From positions 1 to 27,099 of IMG/VR virus record IMGVR_UViG_3300021197_000644: 27,099 nt of DNA. One strand, given 5' to 3'. The notes below the pieces were generated by a model. The model had not been told where the DNA came from, did not search any database, and saw only the letters and a program-made list of their open reading frames with translations. The position numbers and the translations under genes were made by a program. Every line of letters starts with the position of its first letter. Position 1 is the stretch's first letter. This DNA is from a virus. Of the stretch, positions 3,437 to 27,091 are shown piece after piece.

Positions 3437-6400
3437 ATGCCAACACAAACCTTTCAATATTTCGTTCCAGTAGGTTCTACTAATGTTTCTATCACTGCTG
3501 CAATGTTTGGGGCTGGTGGTGTGACTCTAGACACACTAGCATTAACACAAGCAGTATCAACGGGATACATAACTCCTACTGGTTCTCTTACCATGCTAAA
3601 GGCACTGATTGATTCTAAATCAGATGGTCAGGTTCTTGATTTATATACTGGTCATTATAGTTTGATGGGAACAACTCAAGCAGCAGCATATGGATTTAGT
3701 GCAGACTTTGGTCCAGGCGTTGGTGATTGGAATGGAATTGATGTTTATAATTCAATCACAATAAAGAATGGTACGGTTTCTTTCTATGAATTGCACCAGC
3801 CCGCTACAGGATCAGCAGCAGGCACATTCACAGTTCCAAACACTACTCAAGAAGATTTCATTCAGATGTTTGATCCTGATTCTACACAGGAAGCAATACG
3901 TCTGGCAACATATCCTCCACAATTCGGTGATCGTGTGACTACATTCAAGGTAGACGCTCGATCATTCGTCTTGGGAAGCAATGCAGCAACACCCAGCGGC
4001 ATACTTAGTGTTACTTATGATAGTGGAACATCAAGATATTATAATAGTGGTTTTACTGTCACTGGTGTTACCCTAGTAAATGATATAAAGACCATGCTTA
4101 ATAGTGTTGTCTCCGCAGAATCATCATACTCAGGAAGAACTGCGGCAGCAACTGGTATTGGTTTAGTAATGAATATTAATCCAAATGCAATACAAGTAGT
4201 TACAGTATCAGATTACAGTGAAGGACTCAGTGGAAGTGATCCCATAATAGGAATCACGTTTGCTGGTGGTACTAGTTCTTGGCCATCTAGGAGTAGTGAT
4301 TCCTTTTACATTAATGAACTAAACTTCTTCGGTAGATATTCATTCGGTACTACGGGTGCTAGTGGAACATATTACACATATGATAGTAATACAGTTACAT
4401 ACAAACCATTATCTGGCACTTGTAAGAATCTTTATCTGCCAAGAGTTTCAGATCAGGCAGGTCATGGTCTAAAGTTTCATTCAAATGGTTTAAACCTAAT
4501 AGATGGTGTAACATTTATTGGTGCAGGTAAATATGATGCGACTCACGCGGGTAATATGTTCTACGACGTTGCACGGGCGGGTTCTATCCTTAGATTGCGA
4601 AATGTAAACACTTTCATGGGTAGTGGAGTATATAATACTCAGACAAATGGAACATGGTTTGATGCAGAAGATTGTAGGTTTATTGCTCCTGCTATGAGAG
4701 CAGTCACCACTGCTACTGAAGATAGAATAACAATCAACAGATGTGAATTTATAAACGGATTATATACCAACAGTGCGATCGGTAGACTCAATTCAGATCG
4801 TGGCCCCCATGCGTTCTATAATGGTATGCCTGAGTGTAGAATTACCAATTCTGTTTTTGACTTTGACTCAAACCACGGACAAGCAATTTCTGCATACGCA
4901 GGTAGTTTTATAAACACCACAATCACTGGCAATATCTTCCGTAACCTGCCAAGACCTGTCTCTCTTCAATGGTCCACCAACTTAGAAGCAAATGTAATAA
5001 ACCAATTAGAAGATTATCCCGGATATGAATTCTCAAACAATCTAGTATATGTCGATCAGTTACCAGCCAAAGCAGCAACAGGACAGTCCGGCCTTGCTTA
5101 CAATGGACAGGCGCCGCAATCGATTGCTTTTAAACTTCAGGGTGTAATTCCAGGCGGACCAACACTTGATGGAATCTATGGCATCACAGGTGCATTTGCT
5201 GTTGATGATAATTCTACAAAATACTATATCAGATTATCCGCTGATCAACTACCCCGTGTTAAAGTACCTATGATAAAGTATGGATATCGTATCCTAGATG
5301 GTGTTGGTTACTTAATAGGCACTATTGATAGATGGGATAATGTAAATAATCAGGAAAATTATCTCACTTCTACTTTTGAAATACTAGGTAGAACAGGGCC
5401 GACTGGTTCTGAATTCAATGGAGCAATAGAAATATATCTTGGTGCTTCTGGTTCAACATCAGATACCATTACTGGCGGCATAACCTGTGGCGAAACTCTA
5501 TTAATGAGAAACATACCACCGATTACACTCAAAAATAATACAATAGTACTGAGTAGAGATCTCATAGAAAACGAGGGGTCAACAGGACACTATGTATCCA
5601 ACACGGTAAATTTAACATTCGGTGGTGGAAGTAGTGGTCTTGCTGCGGGTGTGGCAAGTGCAGGGCCGATGGAATTCAGAAACAACATAATTTACGCGAC
5701 AGGCAATCTACAAACAACAAAGCGAGTAGGTTTGTCTGGTGGATATGATATCACCACTGGTGCTACATTAGATATTGGTGCTAATGGTGTGTATAAAGGC
5801 ACTATTAGTATACAGAATGGAAGAAGTATAGTAAGTGAGAACGTATTCTTTGAATACGCTTGGAATGCTGAAGGTTTCGTGGATGGATATAGTGGTGGTG
5901 CAGATATACAGAGAAAGAACTGTCTATCAAAGTCTCTGGGATCTACTTTAGATAATGTATATAATGGCGGCCTTTTAACAAACAGGAGTGATCAATTATC
6001 AGCATTTGATAAAGTATTTACATGGAATGGCGGAACAGGTACAGTATCACCTAATGCTGGATATTCTGGTATCGGTCTGAACTGGAGTCAGTATCCAAAA
6101 TGGGAAGACATTAAAAACTTAGGATATACATTCTCGGATGTTTATAATCCTCTTGGTGTTCCCGTAACGCCTGGATCTGGTTACAATGTTGAATTTAAAA
6201 ATGATTACACTTGGGGTGTTACTTTCTTTGGACAGACAATAAATAAAGGTTATCACACACGAACAGGAACTACTCTCGGCGAGAAAAATACACAAACAGG
6301 TATTGCCGATCTCTTTGCCAGTCGATCTAATCCTACACTACACTTAGGACAACCCGACGTATATAATATGGATTCTTCTGGGTTTACTCTAGACGCATAC

Positions 6401-8380
6401 TCTTTCCATGCCGGCGGCGTGAGGAGAGTAGTGGTTCAGGTAGATCGTGGTGCTGCTTCAGAGATGACATATACGGGCAATTTGGGTGGTTACACTGGAA
6501 CTGGATACTACCAACACTACTTTGATCCCACAGGATTTAGTGCAGGAACTACACATGAAGTTCGCGTAACATCAATTCCTACCAACGGTATAACCAGAAC
6601 TAAACAAATGCTACTCTCATATGTTAGTGGAGAGAATAAGGTAACGATTGGTACAACACAAGGAATTAGTGCTGGTTGGGATGCCATACGATCTACTTGG
6701 GATCCTCGCAAGAGAAATATAATTGAACTTGGTGTGAGTGGTGATTACATTATGGGCGAAAATCCCATAACCACTGAAATATATCCTTATGGTTGGGTTG
6801 AAGTTATACCAGCAGCAGGTGTTTCTGCGTCAATAAATTTATCAAGATTCCTTTCGGGTACTACCACAGATAATCCTAATTGGGTGGAAAACAGGCCTTG
6901 GATGCATCAAATGAAGTTTAAAAACATCACATTCACAAGTATGATTCAGCAAGGTATGACACAGACTAATGCCGGTGTGAATTTAGAAGATGCTGCATTC
7001 ACAACTAGATGGTGGATAGATGGATGTACTTTACAGAGTAACTGGTATAGTGGAACTTCGGGTGCAACAGCCTACTGGGCCTTCCCCAACGAGACGCCAG
7101 TTATTGGTGTAAGTAATATGTTCCGTAACGCATATTATCAGAGATTATATTTTACTAATAGTTTTGGATCAGAAAATCAGGGTCAAATGTGTGGTGCTGT
7201 GTTAGTCAGAGGATGTACTCAGGATTTAAATTTCCAAGATTCGTACACAAATACAATGGCATTAATTGATTCATCTTCAACCAGAAAATTAACTCCGGTC
7301 GCCACCAACCTACATGCAGATCATTGGCAACTATTTAATGGATTGAGCGGACCTTTCACAAACAACGATGGTGTAACCTTCGCTCACCCAAGCGTATCAG
7401 CAACAGGTCCCGTGGCCGTTGTGATGAATTTTTTGTTGTATAACTATTATGGTTTTGATTATGCTCCAGCAGGATTTACTCTATCAATGGTACAACCTTT
7501 TGGATTTTTTGGTACGCGGAGTGAGTATTATAAGGATGTCGCTCATATTATAGGTAAATGGGGTGCGGGGGAGACTTCATCCTCGGGAGCAAACGCAAGC
7601 GCCTCAATCGCTGTAAGATATGATCATGTAATGTTGTTAGGAATTACATTAGACACTAATCGCGTGCTTGATTTTAGAGCCAATTCCGTGGGAGATATAA
7701 CCAAACAATTTGGCCCTGTTCTGATGCAGGGTGTAAGTGCGTTAAATATTACTAATGGTAATCAAAATCTTCTTAATCCTGATAATCAGCCTGGAACTAT
7801 AAATCAGTTCAAAGCAATAGAACCAATAACACCTGATGTTATATTCAGTGGTCCTGCTACAGATGATAGTTTACTGGTAACACAATACCAATGGCACATA
7901 CCAGGCGCCTCTATGGCAAATCGTTCCTTTGATAACTTCTATACCCAACATTCGAGTTCGTCCTCAACCCTTAATTGGGGTATAACTGCTCAAAACGGGC
8001 CAGGTGTAAGTGGATCTCCAATCAAGACAATCGTGGCATTAGGTGGATGTGGTGACACTTGGAACAACGATGCGAGATTTGCCTATAGTAACACCAGCAG
8101 CGGCAATGTTAGTAGTATATCATTAACCCATTTTGGTGCTGGTGAGACCGCCGAAGCAAACGCATGGATCGATTTGGCTGGAGAATCAGGATGGTGGTTC
8201 AGAATAACCACCGATGAAGGATTCATGTATAATAGTACTAAACTAAAGAAGAGAGAAGAGAATAACATAATTGATATCAGTGGGTGGAATGCTCTTCAGT
8301 TTGGTGGTATAACAATGTCGCCTGCCGGTATTACTGGTTCATCAACAGGTGTGACGTTTGAAATAAGGAGAATGACATGA
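3437..8380 (+). CDS. Giant beta-helix tail fibre or tailspike (first of two)
   Basis: A 1647-residue protein, very rich in Gly, Ser, Thr and Asn. Residues 13-32 (GSTNVSITAAMFGAGGVTLD) match the second giant protein at 18555-23492 almost exactly, so this is likely a shared attachment or assembly module. Beyond residue about 330 there are repeated strand-turn patterns such as LRNVNTF, DAEDCRFIAP, INRCEFIN, ITNSVFDF and TTITGNIFRN. These are typical of right-handed parallel beta-helix proteins, including phage tailspikes that bind or cut surface polysaccharide. A similar pattern returns around residues 1160-1280. No catalytic residues can be assigned by eye. The gene follows the Ig/cupredoxin gene and overlaps the next gene by ATGA (8377-8380). 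It probably recognises the host surface. Nearly equal length to its partner (1647 versus 1645) is striking. Confidence 0.75.
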   Translation: MPTQTFQYFVPVGSTNVSITAAMFGAGGVTLDTLALTQAVSTGYITPTGSLTMLKALIDSKSDGQVLDLYTGHYSLMGTTQAAAYGFSADFGPGVGDWNGIDVYNSITIKNGTVSFYELHQPATGSAAGTFTVPNTTQEDFIQMFDPDSTQEAIRLATYPPQFGDRVTTFKVDARSFVLGSNAATPSGILSVTYDSGTSRYYNSGFTVTGVTLVNDIKTMLNSVVSAESSYSGRTAAATGIGLVMNINPNAIQVVTVSDYSEGLSGSDPIIGITFAGGTSSWPSRSSDSFYINELNFFGRYSFGTTGASGTYYTYDSNTVTYKPLSGTCKNLYLPRVSDQAGHGLKFHSNGLNLIDGVTFIGAGKYDATHAGNMFYDVARAGSILRLRNVNTFMGSGVYNTQTNGTWFDAEDCRFIAPAMRAVTTATEDRITINRCEFINGLYTNSAIGRLNSDRGPHAFYNGMPECRITNSVFDFDSNHGQAISAYAGSFINTTITGNIFRNLPRPVSLQWSTNLEANVINQLEDYPGYEFSNNLVYVDQLPAKAATGQSGLAYNGQAPQSIAFKLQGVIPGGPTLDGIYGITGAFAVDDNSTKYYIRLSADQLPRVKVPMIKYGYRILDGVGYLIGTIDRWDNVNNQENYLTSTFEILGRTGPTGSEFNGAIEIYLGASGSTSDTITGGITCGETLLMRNIPPITLKNNTIVLSRDLIENEGSTGHYVSNTVNLTFGGGSSGLAAGVASAGPMEFRNNIIYATGNLQTTKRVGLSGGYDITTGATLDIGANGVYKGTISIQNGRSIVSENVFFEYAWNAEGFVDGYSGGADIQRKNCLSKSLGSTLDNVYNGGLLTNRSDQLSAFDKVFTWNGGTGTVSPNAGYSGIGLNWSQYPKWEDIKNLGYTFSDVYNPLGVPVTPGSGYNVEFKNDYTWGVTFFGQTINKGYHTRTGTTLGEKNTQTGIADLFASRSNPTLHLGQPDVYNMDSSGFTLDAYSFHAGGVRRVVVQVDRGAASEMTYTGNLGGYTGTGYYQHYFDPTGFSAGTTHEVRVTSIPTNGITRTKQMLLSYVSGENKVTIGTTQGISAGWDAIRSTWDPRKRNIIELGVSGDYIMGENPITTEIYPYGWVEVIPAAGVSASINLSRFLSGTTTDNPNWVENRPWMHQMKFKNITFTSMIQQGMTQTNAGVNLEDAAFTTRWWIDGCTLQSNWYSGTSGATAYWAFPNETPVIGVSNMFRNAYYQRLYFTNSFGSENQGQMCGAVLVRGCTQDLNFQDSYTNTMALIDSSSTRKLTPVATNLHADHWQLFNGLSGPFTNNDGVTFAHPSVSATGPVAVVMNFLLYNYYGFDYAPAGFTLSMVQPFGFFGTRSEYYKDVAHIIGKWGAGETSSSGANASASIAVRYDHVMLLGITLDTNRVLDFRANSVGDITKQFGPVLMQGVSALNITNGNQNLLNPDNQPGTINQFKAIEPITPDVIFSGPATDDSLLVTQYQWHIPGASMANRSFDNFYTQHSSSSSTLNWGITAQNGPGVSGSPIKTIVALGGCGDTWNNDARFAYSNTSSGNVSSISLTHFGAGETAEANAWIDLAGESGWWFRITTDEGFMYNSTKLKKREENNIIDISGWNALQFGGITMSPAGITGSSTGVTFEIRRMT
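3473..3533 (+). repeat. Left copy of an inverted repeat shared by the two giant fibre genes
   Basis: This 61-base block matches the reverse complement of 23381-23441 at about 54 of 61 positions. It includes 26 identical bases in a row (3500-3525 against 23389-23414). It encodes the shared N-terminal module of both giant proteins. Confidence 0.9.
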
Positions 8381-18554: not shown

Positions 18555-21500
18555 TTAGTTCTCTTCTATCTTATACTTTGGAGTGGCACCAAATCTAGCA
18601 TATAAATCGGTCCAGTTATTATCCCATGTAGTACCAGTGGTTTCGTTGCTGCCTCTAACAAAAACAGTGTCTTGGTTCCATTGTTCCCAACCACCAGTCC
18701 AACCATATGTGTATGTTACACCTGCGGTAGATACTATTTCCAATGTTACTCCGGGATTTGCTGTTTGGAAGTTATTCTTATCCAATGTAGTACCAAATGT
18801 AAGTTGAAGTCCCCTATTTGATGCGGTGAGTGGTTGCAATGATATCTTAGACATATTTGCACCAGTAATACCAGTGGCAATTTGACTAGTTCTTGGTGCG
18901 AATGTATTCACGAATGAACCACTTGAATCTGTTCTATAAAAGGAATTGTCAGTATCAGCAGCAAAAATTCCATACTCGGGCGCGGGATACACATACACAT
19001 TAGACCAAGTTATTCCTGCACCATATCCTTCTGTTGTTACACCATTGAGGTAGGAACTAATATCATTCGTATTAATAACATTAACATAACTATGAACCTG
19101 ATCTAGATCAGCGACTTGGTATGCAAAGGATACAGTATCGGTAGTTATTCCGTTAACGTAGAAGTGATCGAATGATGCACCATCATATAAGTTTTCATTT
19201 CTATCGTACTGTACGTTTAGTGCTGATGGGCTTTGCGGTATTCCACCCAATGATATGTTATTCAAACCAATATGATGCCAATATCCAGCAAACTGAATCC
19301 AGTTATTCGTAGTATAACTAGTTACCCTTGTAACGCTGTCTCTTATGAATATGTAATTGTTGTCTGTGTATGTCGCAAAGCCATTTTTAGGTGCGGATCG
19401 GTCAAACAATATGGTTTGTAATTGAGTATCGCCTGTTCCTCCACCTGAATTTTCAACTAGATGGCCACCATAGTAGAAGTTCTGGTGTTGAAATGTATCA
19501 TGACTTTCAGGATTACCCCACCATTGATGCAGATCAACGTGTGTATATGATGAACCATAAGTATCTGCTGCATGTCGGTATGGTTTAACATTTGTTGCGT
19601 AGTTGTTTATTGAACACAAAGCACCAGTCGCTATATCGACTCTTAGTCCAGACATACGACAATCACGCATTAAAGAACACCATGAGTGGCCGGGTGTACT
19701 AAGATTAACAAAGTTACAATCAACATATCCTCGCCACGGTTGATTATCCGCAGACCCACCGTCCCAGTTCTGTTCTATTCTCGTTCGTTTTAAAGGCGCC
19801 CCAGCAGTACCATCATCATTCAATGACTGAGCATCACCACCTACAAGAGTTGTATAACTTTCAAGTGTAAATCCTCTTATGTTACCTGTTGTAACTCCTA
19901 AACTCTGGTTAGAGTTATATGCAATATTTAATGTTGCACCCGCGACGTATGTACCACTGACGCCTGTGCCTTGCTTTTGTCCGTATACATTAAACTGACC
20001 AAAACTAACACCAGCACTAGTACCAGTTATCCATTCGTTTATCGAATTACCTGTTCCATAAACATCACCTATCTGTATTCCAAGATAACCAAAGTTTGTT
20101 GATGTAGTTGGTGCAGAATCACCAGTAGGTCCACCATTTCCTTGATAGACGTATTCACCAGCAACAATACTGGCAATATCAGCACTTGACCCTAGAATAG
20201 TCGCACGAATGCCGGGAGGTCTTTGTATGTTTGTGTAGTCTGTATCATTATACCTACTCTCAAAGGTACAACCATCAAAGAGTAAATTAGCGTATTTTTC
20301 TTGGTAGTAGTTACCACCAATATAACTATCAGAACTAGAACCAATAAGACAATTCTTATATCGAATGTAGGTTAGGTTAGTTCTAACATCATTCGTCATG
20401 CCTTCCATACCACTCCAATATACTGAATTTCCTCCAGTGGGCGCCACTGTGATCCAAGATCTTCTTGAAGTATTTTCTGTAGTTGATTTCGCAAGACCCT
20501 GAAGATTCCATACATTATTCAAGGTGCAATTGTAGTTGACATGAATCTCGTCGAGTGTAAGTCCAGAAAGTGTATACCCACCATCAAGTGCGGCCGCGAA
20601 CTCAGCATCATTTGCTACTGTTACAATATTGAGAGAAGGACGTTGAAGAATCTTAATTGTTTGTGTGTCTGTAGCATTTCTTCTGAGTGTAAATGTATTC
20701 ATCGAATCAGGAACTAATTCAATTTCCTTTCTATACACAAAGGAAGAGGTAGTTCCCTTATCAGGGTACGTTAGAAACGTCTTAGTACCAACATGGGCAG
20801 TGACGCCATTGTGTATTATGGTAGGAGCCGTAGTTAAGTATTCTGCTGGATTAACATTCTCTCCCACATAGTCAATAATATATGTGGATGCCGTAGTTAC
20901 CATACCAGAAGGAATGGCAAAGCGAGCCACATCGATATCTGCAACCGAAGCCCCAGGCCCGATTATAGAATCAATCAAACCACCAGTCGCGGCCGTTAAT
21001 GACCAACTATCACTGGTTGGATTAAACGATGCAGAAATTCCACTAGCACTGAGAGTTAGTCCTGTACCACTCCAATTGACAGGCATACCAGTTGTAGATC
21101 CTGTTCCTTCATAATTTCTTGTAGTATCGATTGCGTCTACAAGATACTCTTGACTGAGTGTGAGTCCTGCATAGTCAATAAGTTGAAGACCGTTATAGTC
21201 ACCACTTGCAAATACTCTTAGTTTGATTGCTTCTTTATATCCAAGAGGAGTATCGTTTAATTCGTATGCACCTATCTCCCGACTCGCAGGCCTTATTGTG
21301 CCACCGATACTATATGGTAGTCCCTTGGTTGTAGATTTTCCTATAGAGGAATAACCCACACCATATCTGTTGATGTTTCCACCTGCACCTTGATCACCGA
21401 CATTATCAAAGTAGTTACTTGAGAGTTGAGTTGATCCATGCGTCGTCGCTCCTGGCATAAGTTGCCAAGCACTATACGCAGAATTCCTCACATCTACTAG

Positions 21501-23492
21501 ACCAGTAAATGTTACTCCTCCAACATCAGTGCCTATCTGTTTGAACACAGATGAGTCCGCAATAAATCTTATTGGTTGGATGAAGTCCGAGGCTCCGTTT
21601 CTGAAACTAAAAGATAGAGTAGTTGGGAAACTACAATACTTGAGAGCCATCCTCCTCGGCCCATTTTTTATTTGTGCCAGAAGACCCATTCTAGGTCTGG
21701 TATATTGCTCAAAGGAACAATTACTAAACACTACGTTATCAATTCCAAGAGTAGGGCCGCCCTGAAAGAGCATCGGTTGCTCATCTTGGTATATACGATA
21801 GTCTTGTACAAGAATGTTATCCATCGTGAGTCCTGTGATTTCCGTGGCTCCTCCGACTTGGAAACCATCTGGGTGTGCCCAGATTGCCATAAACAATTCA
21901 GTACCTACTGGTAGTTCATTGGTATAATCTATGTCCCTGAATACTATCTTCTTATCAGCAGTAGCAGAAGTTCCCCATAACTGTGTTTGCTTGTATTGAG
22001 AATATAGACGTTTGCGGTTGACTACACTATGTTCCTCACCCGACTTCCAGTATCCACAAAGGAAGTCAGATCGTTGCATATACCGATCACTAGGATCTAC
22101 ACCGCCTGCTGTTGATAAGTTTGTTGGCCAACTGAATGTCCTTCCGGCACTGGCACCCGACACTACATTAATAATCGTCTCACCACTTGCACCCAAGGTA
22201 GAACCCGTAACTACAAGGTAATCCTCTGTTGATGTGGAAGTTTGAAAGAGAGCCTTATCTCCGCCAATAGATTCCATCTTATTGATGGTCATTCCTGTTT
22301 CAAGAACAGAGAGTCCTGCACTTGATCCGTTTTGAAGAAACGACCACGACAAATACATGGGATCGAATGAACAATTGGCCGTTACGTTCATATACTCACA
22401 AGCACCACCAGCAACCATAGAATTCAAGTGAGTATTGTGAACTTCGTGCCTTGCTACTCTATTGCCATTAGTGGAGTAGTCATAGAAACTAGTTTGGGTA
22501 AGTTCATGAGACTTAATACCATATGTTCTTCCCCCATCTTCTTCATTCCACCAACTATCAGTGATAGTGCAATTGTTATATCCAGAATACTCTCCGTTGA
22601 TGGTGATAGTCGGCTGTGAGTTCTTTAGATCAAGGGTCACGCCCTCCCATACAACATGCTCAATTCGTAATTCAGGTCTGTTGTAATTGCTCCACGTTCC
22701 AGCACTATATGTACCTTCTCTACTCTGTGTTATACCCCCATCAACCCTGTATGGTGAAATCACAACATCACTTGTATTACCTGCTTTGGCCTGAACCTCA
22801 TTCCAAAAACCATTCGTAGTACCAAGCCCACCTTGTTTGAAGGTATAATTACCTCCACGAAGTTTCAATATTCTGTTGTCTTCATATGTACCACCACTCG
22901 AATAACCAATAAGACCAGAGATATCTGCATTCTCATCAAGATCCTCGGGGCCTTTCTCTAGCACAACAGGAACAACACATCTTATGTCTTTATTAATGAT
23001 ACGACTATTCCCATTAACGGGAACTAGTTTTGCGTAGACTGTTGTGGTTCCATTTGAAGTCACGCCGGCGGGGAAGAACATGTCAAAGTTATAACCCTGA
23101 ACACCAACAGCATTTTTCGATATAGTAGATGAAGATGCACTTGAACCATGACACCAGACTTCAACATGATCTATACCTGCGGGATCAACCACATCTGCCG
23201 CCACCATGAAGTTTTGTGTGGTGCCTGGTGAATACAGACGAGAGAGCATATGCAATCGTCCAACCGCTGTATCACCATAGTCTATGCCGTGAGTCGAATT
23301 AGATGGTGCAGTATTTGCCAGAGCAAAGTTTGGAGTGACGATCGGTGCTGTAATACCAACCGAAGCCGCAGTCGTCTCTATGTCTAGTGTCACACCACCA
23401 GCCCCAAACATTGCCGCAGTGATTGAAACACTGGTTGAGCCAGGAGCGATATAAAACTGATAACTTGCAGTCGGGTGATAGAGAATAGGCAT
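18555..23492 (-). CDS. Giant beta-helix tail fibre or tailspike (second of two)
   Basis: A 1645-residue protein, the same size as the fibre at 3437 but on the opposite strand. Residues about 18-37 (GSTSVSITAAMFGAGGVTLD) match that protein at 19 of 20 positions, and the DNA there is also nearly identical; downstream the two differ. The chain is rich in Gly, Ser, Thr and Asn with beta-helix-like strand runs (MTINKMESIGG, ITGLTMDNILVQDY, IDNVVFSNCSFEQY, ALKYCSFPTTL, YANLLFDGCTFES). It is probably a second host-recognition fibre or spike using the same attachment module. The C-terminus (TYTYGWTGGWEQWN, then WTDLYARFGATPKYK) may be a receptor or trimer tip. The start has only a weak GGGG ribosome site 26 bases after the upstream gene's stop. 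Confidence 0.75.
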   Translation of the reverse strand: MPILYHPTASYQFYIAPGSTSVSITAAMFGAGGVTLDIETTAASVGITAPIVTPNFALANTAPSNSTHGIDYGDTAVGRLHMLSRLYSPGTTQNFMVAADVVDPAGIDHVEVWCHGSSASSSTISKNAVGVQGYNFDMFFPAGVTSNGTTTVYAKLVPVNGNSRIINKDIRCVVPVVLEKGPEDLDENADISGLIGYSSGGTYEDNRILKLRGGNYTFKQGGLGTTNGFWNEVQAKAGNTSDVVISPYRVDGGITQSREGTYSAGTWSNYNRPELRIEHVVWEGVTLDLKNSQPTITINGEYSGYNNCTITDSWWNEEDGGRTYGIKSHELTQTSFYDYSTNGNRVARHEVHNTHLNSMVAGGACEYMNVTANCSFDPMYLSWSFLQNGSSAGLSVLETGMTINKMESIGGDKALFQTSTSTEDYLVVTGSTLGASGETIINVVSGASAGRTFSWPTNLSTAGGVDPSDRYMQRSDFLCGYWKSGEEHSVVNRKRLYSQYKQTQLWGTSATADKKIVFRDIDYTNELPVGTELFMAIWAHPDGFQVGGATEITGLTMDNILVQDYRIYQDEQPMLFQGGPTLGIDNVVFSNCSFEQYTRPRMGLLAQIKNGPRRMALKYCSFPTTLSFSFRNGASDFIQPIRFIADSSVFKQIGTDVGGVTFTGLVDVRNSAYSAWQLMPGATTHGSTQLSSNYFDNVGDQGAGGNINRYGVGYSSIGKSTTKGLPYSIGGTIRPASREIGAYELNDTPLGYKEAIKLRVFASGDYNGLQLIDYAGLTLSQEYLVDAIDTTRNYEGTGSTTGMPVNWSGTGLTLSASGISASFNPTSDSWSLTAATGGLIDSIIGPGASVADIDVARFAIPSGMVTTASTYIIDYVGENVNPAEYLTTAPTIIHNGVTAHVGTKTFLTYPDKGTTSSFVYRKEIELVPDSMNTFTLRRNATDTQTIKILQRPSLNIVTVANDAEFAAALDGGYTLSGLTLDEIHVNYNCTLNNVWNLQGLAKSTTENTSRRSWITVAPTGGNSVYWSGMEGMTNDVRTNLTYIRYKNCLIGSSSDSYIGGNYYQEKYANLLFDGCTFESRYNDTDYTNIQRPPGIRATILGSSADIASIVAGEYVYQGNGGPTGDSAPTTSTNFGYLGIQIGDVYGTGNSINEWITGTSAGVSFGQFNVYGQKQGTGVSGTYVAGATLNIAYNSNQSLGVTTGNIRGFTLESYTTLVGGDAQSLNDDGTAGAPLKRTRIEQNWDGGSADNQPWRGYVDCNFVNLSTPGHSWCSLMRDCRMSGLRVDIATGALCSINNYATNVKPYRHAADTYGSSYTHVDLHQWWGNPESHDTFQHQNFYYGGHLVENSGGGTGDTQLQTILFDRSAPKNGFATYTDNNYIFIRDSVTRVTSYTTNNWIQFAGYWHHIGLNNISLGGIPQSPSALNVQYDRNENLYDGASFDHFYVNGITTDTVSFAYQVADLDQVHSYVNVINTNDISSYLNGVTTEGYGAGITWSNVYVYPAPEYGIFAADTDNSFYRTDSSGSFVNTFAPRTSQIATGITGANMSKISLQPLTASNRGLQLTFGTTLDKNNFQTANPGVTLEIVSTAGVTYTYGWTGGWEQWNQDTVFVRGSNETTGTTWDNNWTDLYARFGATPKYKIEEN
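23381..23441 (-). repeat. Right copy of the inverted repeat shared by the giant fibre genes
   Basis: Its reverse complement matches 3473-3533 at about 54 of 61 bases, with a 26-base perfect core at 23389-23414. The two copies are in opposite orientation about 19.9 kb apart. Confidence 0.9.
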
Positions 23493-24611: not shown

Positions 24612-26729
24612 TCAGGCGATCATGTCGATGAAGCGGTTGAGGACGACTCGGCTGGTGGATCGACCCTTCATGCTCTTGAGGAAGGCATTCTTCTTCTTGG
24701 CAGTGGTATCGGTGTCCTTCACTGAATCCATGGCGTCGGAAGTGTCGATCTTGACGGTACGGATCAGGTACTGTTCATCCCATCCCATGCTATCGCTCGT
24801 GGCGATGGCGTAGTTATCCGACTTCCAAGTCTTAAGACCATCGTACATCTTATCGTGGTCGCGGAAGTAGTGGTAGGAGTGGCGCTCGAACTTCGCAGGA
24901 GTCCAGTCGGTGAGGAAGAAGTTAACGACCTTGGAACCAGTACGCTCCTGAAGCATCTTCGTGAGCAGGTTCGTGGCGTTCTGCTGGTTGACGCGGGTTC
25001 CGATGCGGTCTCCCTCAATCTTGAGCGTACCGTTGTAAGGAACGTGCATCCCGTTACCACTACCGTCCGTGAGGAAGACAGTGTTGACAATCTGGACATT
25101 GTTGTTCTTCTTGAAGGAAGGAACGATGTCGATGGCAGCAAGAACCGCTTCGTTCAGAGGAGTACCACCGAGACCGAATTCTCGTCCCACGGTCGGCAGC
25201 GTGTCTCGGGAGTTCCATGTCTGCGACTTGGCGAGAGCGTAGCACTGCGGAAGAGCAGCGTCGAGTTCTCTCTTGTTCATACGGCTGGAGAAGAGATTCA
25301 GCAGCGTGAAACGGTAATCAGTAGAAGCATAAGATTCGCTATCCGACTCCCTAGTACGATTCTCATCGAATTCGTGCGGCATGATACTGGAGAAGGCATA
25401 GACCTCGAACGGAATGTTAACCTTCTTGCAGAAGAGAACCAACTGCATGACCTGTTCCATCGTCTCGGTAATCTGGTCGCACATGCTACCAGACCAGTCG
25501 AGGAACATAACCAGCCCGTGGTTCTTACCCTCACGAACCGTGGCATTCTTGCGGAAGACATCTTCGGACCACTTGTAGTTCATCATCTTCACGGTATCGA
25601 GGACACCCGACTTCGAGATCTGGACTCGCTTGTGGGCATCAGCCTGCTTTTTCATCTCGAATTGCTTCACCAGTACATTGACCGTGGGCTTGGATCGGAC
25701 GATGAACTGGCGGCATTCTCGATCGCTCGTTTCCTTCGCAGCATTCACCAGCAGCGAACCAGCAAGAAGACGATGAAAACGCTTGTAGTCAAGGATATGA
25801 CGTTCGAGGTCAATCCGCTTCAAGGTTTCCTCACGAGTATCATAGTTATCCGAGATTCCGTCTCTCATAGCGTCTGCCACCTTCGAGAAGGCAGATTCGG
25901 TGATCGACTCGGGCACGTTCGTACCCTGCTGGACAGTAGAATCTCCGTCAGATTCATCGCCACCCGCATCGGGCGAGGAATCAGCATCGGCACCGTCATC
26001 GGTGTCGTCGTCTCCGGCTGAACCGGAGCCCTGCTGCTGATCCTCACCCGAATCGTCATCCGAATCGTCGGAAGACTCGGGCGAACCTTCGCCCTCACCG
26101 TCGCCCGACTCGGATTCGGTGGATTCCTGCTCCTGCTCCTGCTCCTCGTTATCGTCGATGATCGACGCGAGGAGGTCGTTCACGATGTCGAGAACGTCGG
26201 AGAAGGTATCGGCGGACTTGATTCGGTCAATCCACTGCGATTCAGCAGGGGCGAACGGAATCGTCTCACCAGCATGGATTCCAACCTTGAATTCGAGATT
26301 CAGACGGTCGATGAGACCGAGATCGGACATCGATCGACCTTCGAGGCTGAAGAGATCGCGGTTCATAAGATCCACATACGCATCGAGGAAGTCTCGGCGC
26401 AGTCCGGGGAACTGCTTCTTAATCAATCGCTCGATTCGTGCATCCTCGACCACGTTAACGTACTGCTGAACGAGGGCATAGGGAAGACCATGCATCGAAG
26501 ACAACTCTTCAATGTTCGACTTCCAGCCTTCGCATGGAGTATGCAGGGCGTGAGCCACTTCGTGACCGACGAGCATATCGTACAGACTGTTCGACATGTC
26601 CTGCCAGACTGGCAGCGTAAGAACTCGGTTCTTGAGGTCGAAGGAAGCAGTTTCGGCGGCTGGATCATGCACTACCGAGAGATTCTCGGTTGCGAGGAGA
26701 CCCGCGAGGATGGTTTTCGTGTTGCTCAT
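24612..26729 (-). CDS. CobT-like protein with HExxH metallopeptidase motif and VWA domain
   Basis: A 705-residue protein. The N-terminal part has VGHEVAHAL (His56, Glu57, His60), a zinc metallopeptidase motif, then VVEDARIER with Glu95 as a possible third ligand. Residues about 192-265 are an acidic low-complexity linker. The C-terminal part is a VWA domain with a complete MIDAS: DWSGS (411-415), GGTPLNE (Thr523) and the later TDGSG. This plan resembles CobT-like partners of MoxR/CobS AAA+ ATPases, which phages often carry. The real target may be protein remodelling rather than cobalt chelation. Start 26729 is chosen over the open frame to 26846, because the latter crosses a consensus promoter whose predicted +1 falls exactly on this ATG. 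Codons look more GC-rich than in neighbouring genes. Confidence 0.8.
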   Translation of the reverse strand: MSNTKTILAGLLATENLSVVHDPAAETASFDLKNRVLTLPVWQDMSNSLYDMLVGHEVAHALHTPCEGWKSNIEELSSMHGLPYALVQQYVNVVEDARIERLIKKQFPGLRRDFLDAYVDLMNRDLFSLEGRSMSDLGLIDRLNLEFKVGIHAGETIPFAPAESQWIDRIKSADTFSDVLDIVNDLLASIIDDNEEQEQEQESTESESGDGEGEGSPESSDDSDDDSGEDQQQGSGSAGDDDTDDGADADSSPDAGGDESDGDSTVQQGTNVPESITESAFSKVADAMRDGISDNYDTREETLKRIDLERHILDYKRFHRLLAGSLLVNAAKETSDRECRQFIVRSKPTVNVLVKQFEMKKQADAHKRVQISKSGVLDTVKMMNYKWSEDVFRKNATVREGKNHGLVMFLDWSGSMCDQITETMEQVMQLVLFCKKVNIPFEVYAFSSIMPHEFDENRTRESDSESYASTDYRFTLLNLFSSRMNKRELDAALPQCYALAKSQTWNSRDTLPTVGREFGLGGTPLNEAVLAAIDIVPSFKKNNNVQIVNTVFLTDGSGNGMHVPYNGTLKIEGDRIGTRVNQQNATNLLTKMLQERTGSKVVNFFLTDWTPAKFERHSYHYFRDHDKMYDGLKTWKSDNYAIATSDSMGWDEQYLIRTVKIDTSDAMDSVKDTDTTAKKKNAFLKSMKGRSTSRVVLNRFIDMIA

Positions 26730-26734
26730 GCGTA

Positions 26735-26768
26735 TATTATACCACAACCACGCCCCAAGGCAACCCAT
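26735..26768 (-). repeat. 34-bp inverted repeat, left copy, with outward promoter
   Basis: A perfect reverse complement of 27033-27066. On the minus strand it has TTGCCT (26758-26763), a 16-base spacer and TATAAT (26736-26741). The predicted +1 is 26729, the A of the CobT-like start codon, so the transcript would be leaderless. Confidence 0.9.
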
Positions 26769-26788
26769 ATGGAAGATATTTCTCAAAA

Positions 26789-26808
26789 TGTGGATAAAAT
26801 GTGGAAAA
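26789..26808 (-). promoter_or_regulatory. Two tandem DnaA-box-like sites
   Basis: Read on the minus strand, TTATCCACA (26789-26797) is a perfect DnaA box and TTTTCCACA (26800-26808) fits the looser consensus. The ten-base unit AAAATGTGGA repeats with an 11-base period (26785 and 26796), one helical turn. Confidence 0.6.
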
Positions 26809-26946
26809 CCAAGGAAATCCGGTGAAAAATGGACTATTTTTCCCATTTTTGTCGAAATCCGGTTGACAAGCAGCCGATTTTATGGTATTCGCGTGCGTGC
26901 GGGCGCGTTCCTTCTATAGTCGCTCCCTCCGAACGTCCGATATCCT

Positions 26947-26955
26947 TGTGGATAA
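26947..26955 (-). promoter_or_regulatory. Third DnaA-box-like site
   Basis: A second perfect TTATCCACA on the minus strand, about 150 bases from the tandem pair and in the same orientation. Single boxes occur by chance; the cluster of three in one non-coding region is what matters. Confidence 0.55.
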
Positions 26956-27032
26956 CTCTTTTCGACCCATAACTGCTGATTCGGCAAGGGTTTACGTCAA
27001 AATCTCACTAATCTGGGCAATATATCGCATCA

Positions 27033-27066
27033 ATGGGTTGCCTTGGGGCGTGGTTGTGGTATAATA
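27033..27066 (+). repeat. 34-bp inverted repeat, right copy, with outward promoter
   Basis: A perfect reverse complement of 26735-26768. It contains TTGCCT (27038-27043), a 16-base spacer and TATAAT (27060-27065), reading out of the window to the right. A short open frame from ATG 27070 (MSRKRSSKFR) continues past the edge, but too little is visible to call a gene. Confidence 0.9.
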
Positions 27067-27072
27067 CTTATG

Positions 27073-27091
27073 TCGAGGAAACGATCCTCGA
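27073..27091 (+). other. Hairpin at the predicted 5' end of the rightward transcript
   Basis: TCGAGGA and TCCTCGA (27073-27079 with 27085-27091) pair perfectly around an AACGA loop. It would form at the very start of the rightward RNA, where hairpins can slow decay or regulate translation. Confidence 0.55.

Follow-up and report, generated by a model that had tools for sequence, protein, structure and literature searches.

What keeps two candidate divergent promoters of one phage identical over 34 bases is the question raised by the right-hand end of a virus record of 27,099 bases, which by gene content comes from a T4-like myovirus and which was analysed here at its full length (the window). 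Positions 26735-26768 and 27033-27066 form a perfect inverted repeat, with 34 of 34 bases complementary and 264 bases between the arms. The repeat is probably a matched pair of divergent sigma-70-type promoters that serves a CobS-like/CobT-like AAA+/VWA module and is kept alike by recombination.

The inverted repeat and its promoter elements

The repeat is the sole perfect inverted repeat of at least 24 bases in the window. Each arm reads ATGGG-TTGCCT-N16-TATAAT and points outward, with a TG one base before the -10 element, and its hexamers agree with the sigma-70 consensus at 10 of 12 bases at a spacing within the 16-18 bp of such promoters; the pattern occurs twice in the window, whereas none is expected from 100 shuffles. 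The left arm (26735-26768, minus strand) has its -35 TTGCCT at 26763-26758 and its -10 TATAAT at 26741-26736 and is the candidate promoter of a CobT-like gene, the ATG of which (26729) is the predicted left start. The right arm (27033-27066, plus strand), with TTGCCT at 27038-27043 and TATAAT at 27060-27065, is the candidate promoter of a CobS-like gene, and both arms are retained in four relatives. Identical 34-base arms acting as divergent promoters had been proposed in the original prediction and are borne out at exactly these positions, although the spacer, there quoted as 15 bases, lacked its first T and in fact has 16 (TGGGGCGTGGTTGTGG). Further copies of the repeat, a search for which had also been proposed, do not occur in the 27,099-base record. 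A near-identity search of annotated phages returned no match, an Rfam search returned no family, and the one match from a more distant search covered only 25 bases and was discarded as fortuitous.

The window ends 33 bases past the right arm, and this position at a contig end is what might speak for an assembly artefact, a concern raised at the outset. It is answered by relatives that carry the same arms: the repeat is no artefact, since G003, a 51 kb contig (IMGVR record 3300025168_000126) found by an exact-pattern match in the viral collection, holds both arms well inside it at the same spacing and is 98% identical over the region. With no matches expected in the shuffles either, the probability of artefact or chance appears negligible.

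The two genes next to the arms

The left gene (24612-26729, minus strand) encodes a CobT-like VWA protein of 705 aa that matches phrog_459 (E 4e-181), a family also called 'peptidase', and more weakly phrog_5298 (E 2e-5), and that contains HExxH and MIDAS-type DWSGS motifs. Its match to Pfam CobT stays below the cut-off, at 10 bits against 26.1. The predicted structure is poor overall (mean pLDDT 48), and Foldseek searches with this low-confidence model gave VWA matches that include the MDN1 MIDAS domain and NorD. The right-hand gene lies outside the window and was identified in the relatives as CobS-like, with matches to phrog_249 (E 7e-101), to CobS in the PDB (E 4e-28) and also to NorQ; its product has an AAA_5 domain and scores 87.7 bits against the curated equivalog TIGR01650, whose cut-off is 558.55. 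As neither protein reaches the curated cut-offs for cobaltochelatase subunits, the names CobS and CobT describe resemblance only. An AAA_5 ATPase gene nevertheless adjoins a gene for a VWA fold, the latter read from the low-confidence model, as in AAA+/VWA partner pairs. The proposed co-regulation of the CobT-like gene and the then unseen gene to its right is supported by the relatives, in which the latter is CobS-like.

Marine T4-like phages widely carry cobS- and cobT-like genes, and cobS tends to be catalogued as a vitamin B12 gene; no demonstrated role was found in the literature searched. True CobS and CobT assemble into a two-tiered hexameric complex (PMC7689651).

Elsewhere in the window lie two oppositely oriented ORFs, each of about 1646 aa (3437-8380 and 18555-23492), which have only their N-terminal ~50 residues in common (52% identity) and contain a 61-bp inverted repeat (3473-3533/23381-23441); the arrangement is like that of phages in which two tail-fibre-like proteins have a common attachment end. 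A porin-like outer-membrane ORF lies at 257-1294. Searches of Pfam, PHROG and NCBIfam gave no match for it, none of the genome contigs contained a relative, and an attempt to infer the host from it failed.

The arms in close relatives

Besides G003, the layout is kept in G001, G002 and G004 at 82-85% identity, so that the window family has five members. The two window arms differ from each other at 0 of 34 positions and from the orthologous arms of G001, G002 and G004 at 3 to 8. In these three phages the spacer varies both between phages and between the arms of one phage, while ATGGGTTGCC is kept apart from a first-base change in one arm and TATAAT is constant. The suggestion that a regulator reads the spacer is not supported: with this drift the spacer is no conserved operator. 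Duplication or gene conversion had been offered as well, and that part fits arms that are alike within a phage and unlike between phages; a single recent duplication, however, falls short as an account, given that two arms are present in each of the four close relatives. Homogenisation by gene conversion or by re-duplication fits the arm pattern best.

Inverted repeats flanking a short core are typical of inversion sites and mobile elements, and the locus has this general shape. Even so, neither the place nor the orientation of the core varies among the five family members, its 264 bases hold no recombinase gene, and in each of the five the arms read as promoters at an unchanged distance from cobT, so a site-specific inversion site or a pair of mobile-element ends is very improbable.

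Gene order and matched arms in other phages

Among 77 viral loci with both genes, a count that includes a few overlapping views of one contig, 63 are collinear (both genes on one strand, cobS after cobT) and 14 are divergent. The cyanophage and pelagiphage isolates S-MbCM7, HTVC008M and Mosig belong to the collinear group. A search with the N-terminal part of CobS yielded additional divergent loci, and divergence of the two genes seems characteristic of a clade of uncultivated phages. One further contig (L035, IMGVR 3300007512_000009) has cobT with the same leaderless promoter style and no adjoining cobS, a relative of which lies elsewhere on the contig (L207).

In 19 non-redundant divergent loci, the similarity between the two arms of one locus averaged 21.6, compared with 12.4 when the cobS arms were dealt out anew among the loci (z 9.7, p about 1e-5). 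Two loci were kept out of this test: L231, whose region is so short that the test stretches would overlap, and L259, where the cobS start is not mapped and the stretch includes coding sequence. In control comparisons, which used the direct orientation, the middle of the region or shuffled sequences, z was 0.9, -0.1, 2.1, 3.1 and 1.5; the values 2.1 and 3.1 show a small general similarity within a phage. The -10 hexamers, a few of them assigned by eye, are identical in 12 of the 19 pairs against 4.3 expected (p 1.5e-5), and the agreement extends to unusual elements such as TAGCTT/TAGCTT, TAGCCT/TAGCCT and TACAGT/TACAGT.

The matched ends differ in sequence from phage to phage and also in extent. 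L197 has about 47 matched bases with few differences, L205 has 24-base matched ends that include the start codons (read by eye), L040/L206 has a 21-base match in addition to a mirrored control region, L041/L199 has 17 bases, and G005 has 13 at the -35 element; the match is weak in L201, and the arms of L218 and L226 have none. A promoter dialect common to the whole phage was considered as the cause of the matching and set aside: in G003, G006 and G009 the best contig-wide match to the cobT arm is the cobS arm, and nothing elsewhere is as good, although the pair is weak in G010 and is rivalled by a third promoter in G004 and G001. The matching thus appears to be mostly specific to the cobS/cobT pair.

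A third promoter and the transcript leaders

The third promoter is of the same type and lies about 5.5 kb away on the cobS side in close relatives within the window family (L018:19930-20000 in G003, L021:9520-9600 in G004 and L024:16740-16850 in G001). In G004 and G001 the cobT arm is closer to this promoter than to the cobS arm, and for this reason the cobS/cobT module is not strictly a pair. A TTATCCACA box lies upstream of the site, the 5' hairpin reads GTCCC-AGCG-GGGAC, and a small gene (75 aa in G003) comes next.

A regulator from the phage or the host could in principle bind identical operators in both arms and by its selection alone keep them identical. ATGGGTTGCC does exceed a normal -35 element and is invariant or nearly so in the ten arms of the family, and ATGGGTTG recurs at the third promoter. 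Nevertheless, the spacer that is identical in the window drifts in the relatives, so that an operator does not explain identity over all 34 bases, and in other phages the matching stretch sits elsewhere, on the start-codon side in L205 and on the -35 side in G005; a regulator of this kind is accordingly judged distinctly unlikely.

At nearly all loci six to eight bases separate the -10 element of cobT from the ATG (six in the window), hence a leaderless cobT mRNA is probable. In many cases the cobS leader opens with a hairpin of variable sequence, predicted in the window as TCGAGGA-AACGA-TCCTCGA (27073-27091, plus strand) at the 5' end of the leader of the gene identified in relatives, while in some phages cobS looks leaderless too. 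Because cobT seems leaderless and many cobS leaders carry a hairpin, equal transcription need not mean equal protein. More broadly, of 34 TTG-type promoters with TATAAT in the contigs of G003, G004 and G001 (L018-L025), 33 have a spacer of 16 bases, several promoters there have an ATG six bases after the -10 element, and leaderless mRNAs are suggested to be widespread in these phages.

The region between the arms

The core contains several further elements. First, an imperfect dyad related to TAAGTCCTTG-N5-CAAGGACTTA at 26970-26994 is the best site of the window, and the same holds for the contigs of G001, G003, G004, G009 and G010, which with the window makes six of the seven scanned; in G006 a strong dyad is missing. 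The dyad is found in 23 of 25 intergenic regions against 1.4 expected, with a matrix whose seeds were drawn from some of the 25 regions and did not include the window or its close relatives. An RNA hairpin was considered for the dyad, and inspection of the sites argued against it; a protein site is likelier, because changes in the half-sites suit either strand equally. Next, tandem DnaA-type boxes, TTATCCACA and TTTTCCACA, lie at an 11-bp pitch at 26789-26808 (minus strand), and another box forms part of a 24-base block, TTATCCACAAGGATATCGGACGTT (26932-26955, minus strand), that is invariant among the five close relatives making up the window family. A block of 44 bases with the GC-rich centre CGCGTGCGTGCGGGCGCG (26878-26921, plus strand) is nearly invariant in the same five. 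Finally, an inner promoter-like element, TTGACA-N17-TATTCG (26863-26891, plus strand), points towards cobS and is kept in the window, the four close relatives, L193 and L194; it shows no consistent RNA fold.

These core elements suggest a control region or an origin: probably the region serves as joint control for both genes, and it may be a replication origin as well. A stronger form, compatible with the matched promoter pair, is that the whole intergenic region is the phage replication origin with outward promoters, the arms being conserved through transcription or symmetry in initiation. The recurrent dyad, the conserved blocks, the inner promoter-like element and the tandem DnaA-type boxes, which occur in the G006 and G009 regions as well as in the window family, would agree with this. 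DnaA-type boxes are, however, present beyond the family in L197, L199, L203 and partly L201 and absent from many other members of the clade, the dyad fails in G006, GC skew does not single out the region, and part of the module, a box together with the promoter, recurs at a distance of about 5.5 kb. T4 itself is not known to depend on DnaA, which also counts against an origin, and we regard this form as unlikely, though less so than the regulator discussed above.

About 460 bases between cobS and cobT form a mirrored region in L040 (521-983; also L206), which contains GATATCAGGAAGG many times over and, in tandem, GTTAGGGT/CTTAACA units spaced at an 11-base pitch.

Proposed model and comparison with known systems

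The promoter reading and the pairing statistics are well supported by the sequences compared, whereas the stoichiometry, the recombination mechanism and any role as an origin are inferred. In the matched promoter pair, host RNA polymerase would read cobS and cobT at the same time and with similar strength, and the two subunits would thereby be made in step. The arms would be kept alike by recombining with each other, through gene conversion or re-duplication, and the matched promoters would replace the shared operon by which sister phages keep cobS and cobT together. A broader version, to which we would give somewhat less than an even chance, is that homogenisation has recurred across the clade and taken in non-consensus -10 elements and start regions, so that concerted promoter evolution, rather than an operon, holds the subunits in step at a locus that may also be an origin. 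Co-evolving matched promoters are independent evidence that CobS and CobT act together as one AAA+/VWA machine, and the clade offers a clear case in nature of concerted promoter evolution inside one genome. A literature search, of incomplete coverage, found no paper on concerted or matched divergent phage promoters.

Three known systems invite comparison. The early promoters of T4, read with host sigma-70, likewise place host-type TTG-- and TATAAT hexamers on phage genes, whereas the window arms, as predicted promoters, have TTGCCT, a 16-bp spacer, an extended -10 element and a matched copy facing the opposite way. S-MbCM7, HTVC008M and Mosig have the same two gene families as genome neighbours; there cobT lies upstream of cobS in collinear order, in contrast to the divergent order with matched promoters in the window clade. 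MoxR-type AAA+/VWA pairs such as CobS-CobT and NorQ-NorD are also encoded side by side as an AAA_5 ATPase and a VWA protein, while the phage proteins score far below the CobS cut-off (87.7 against 558.55 bits) and below that of Pfam CobT, and the phage CobT-like protein additionally carries HExxH.
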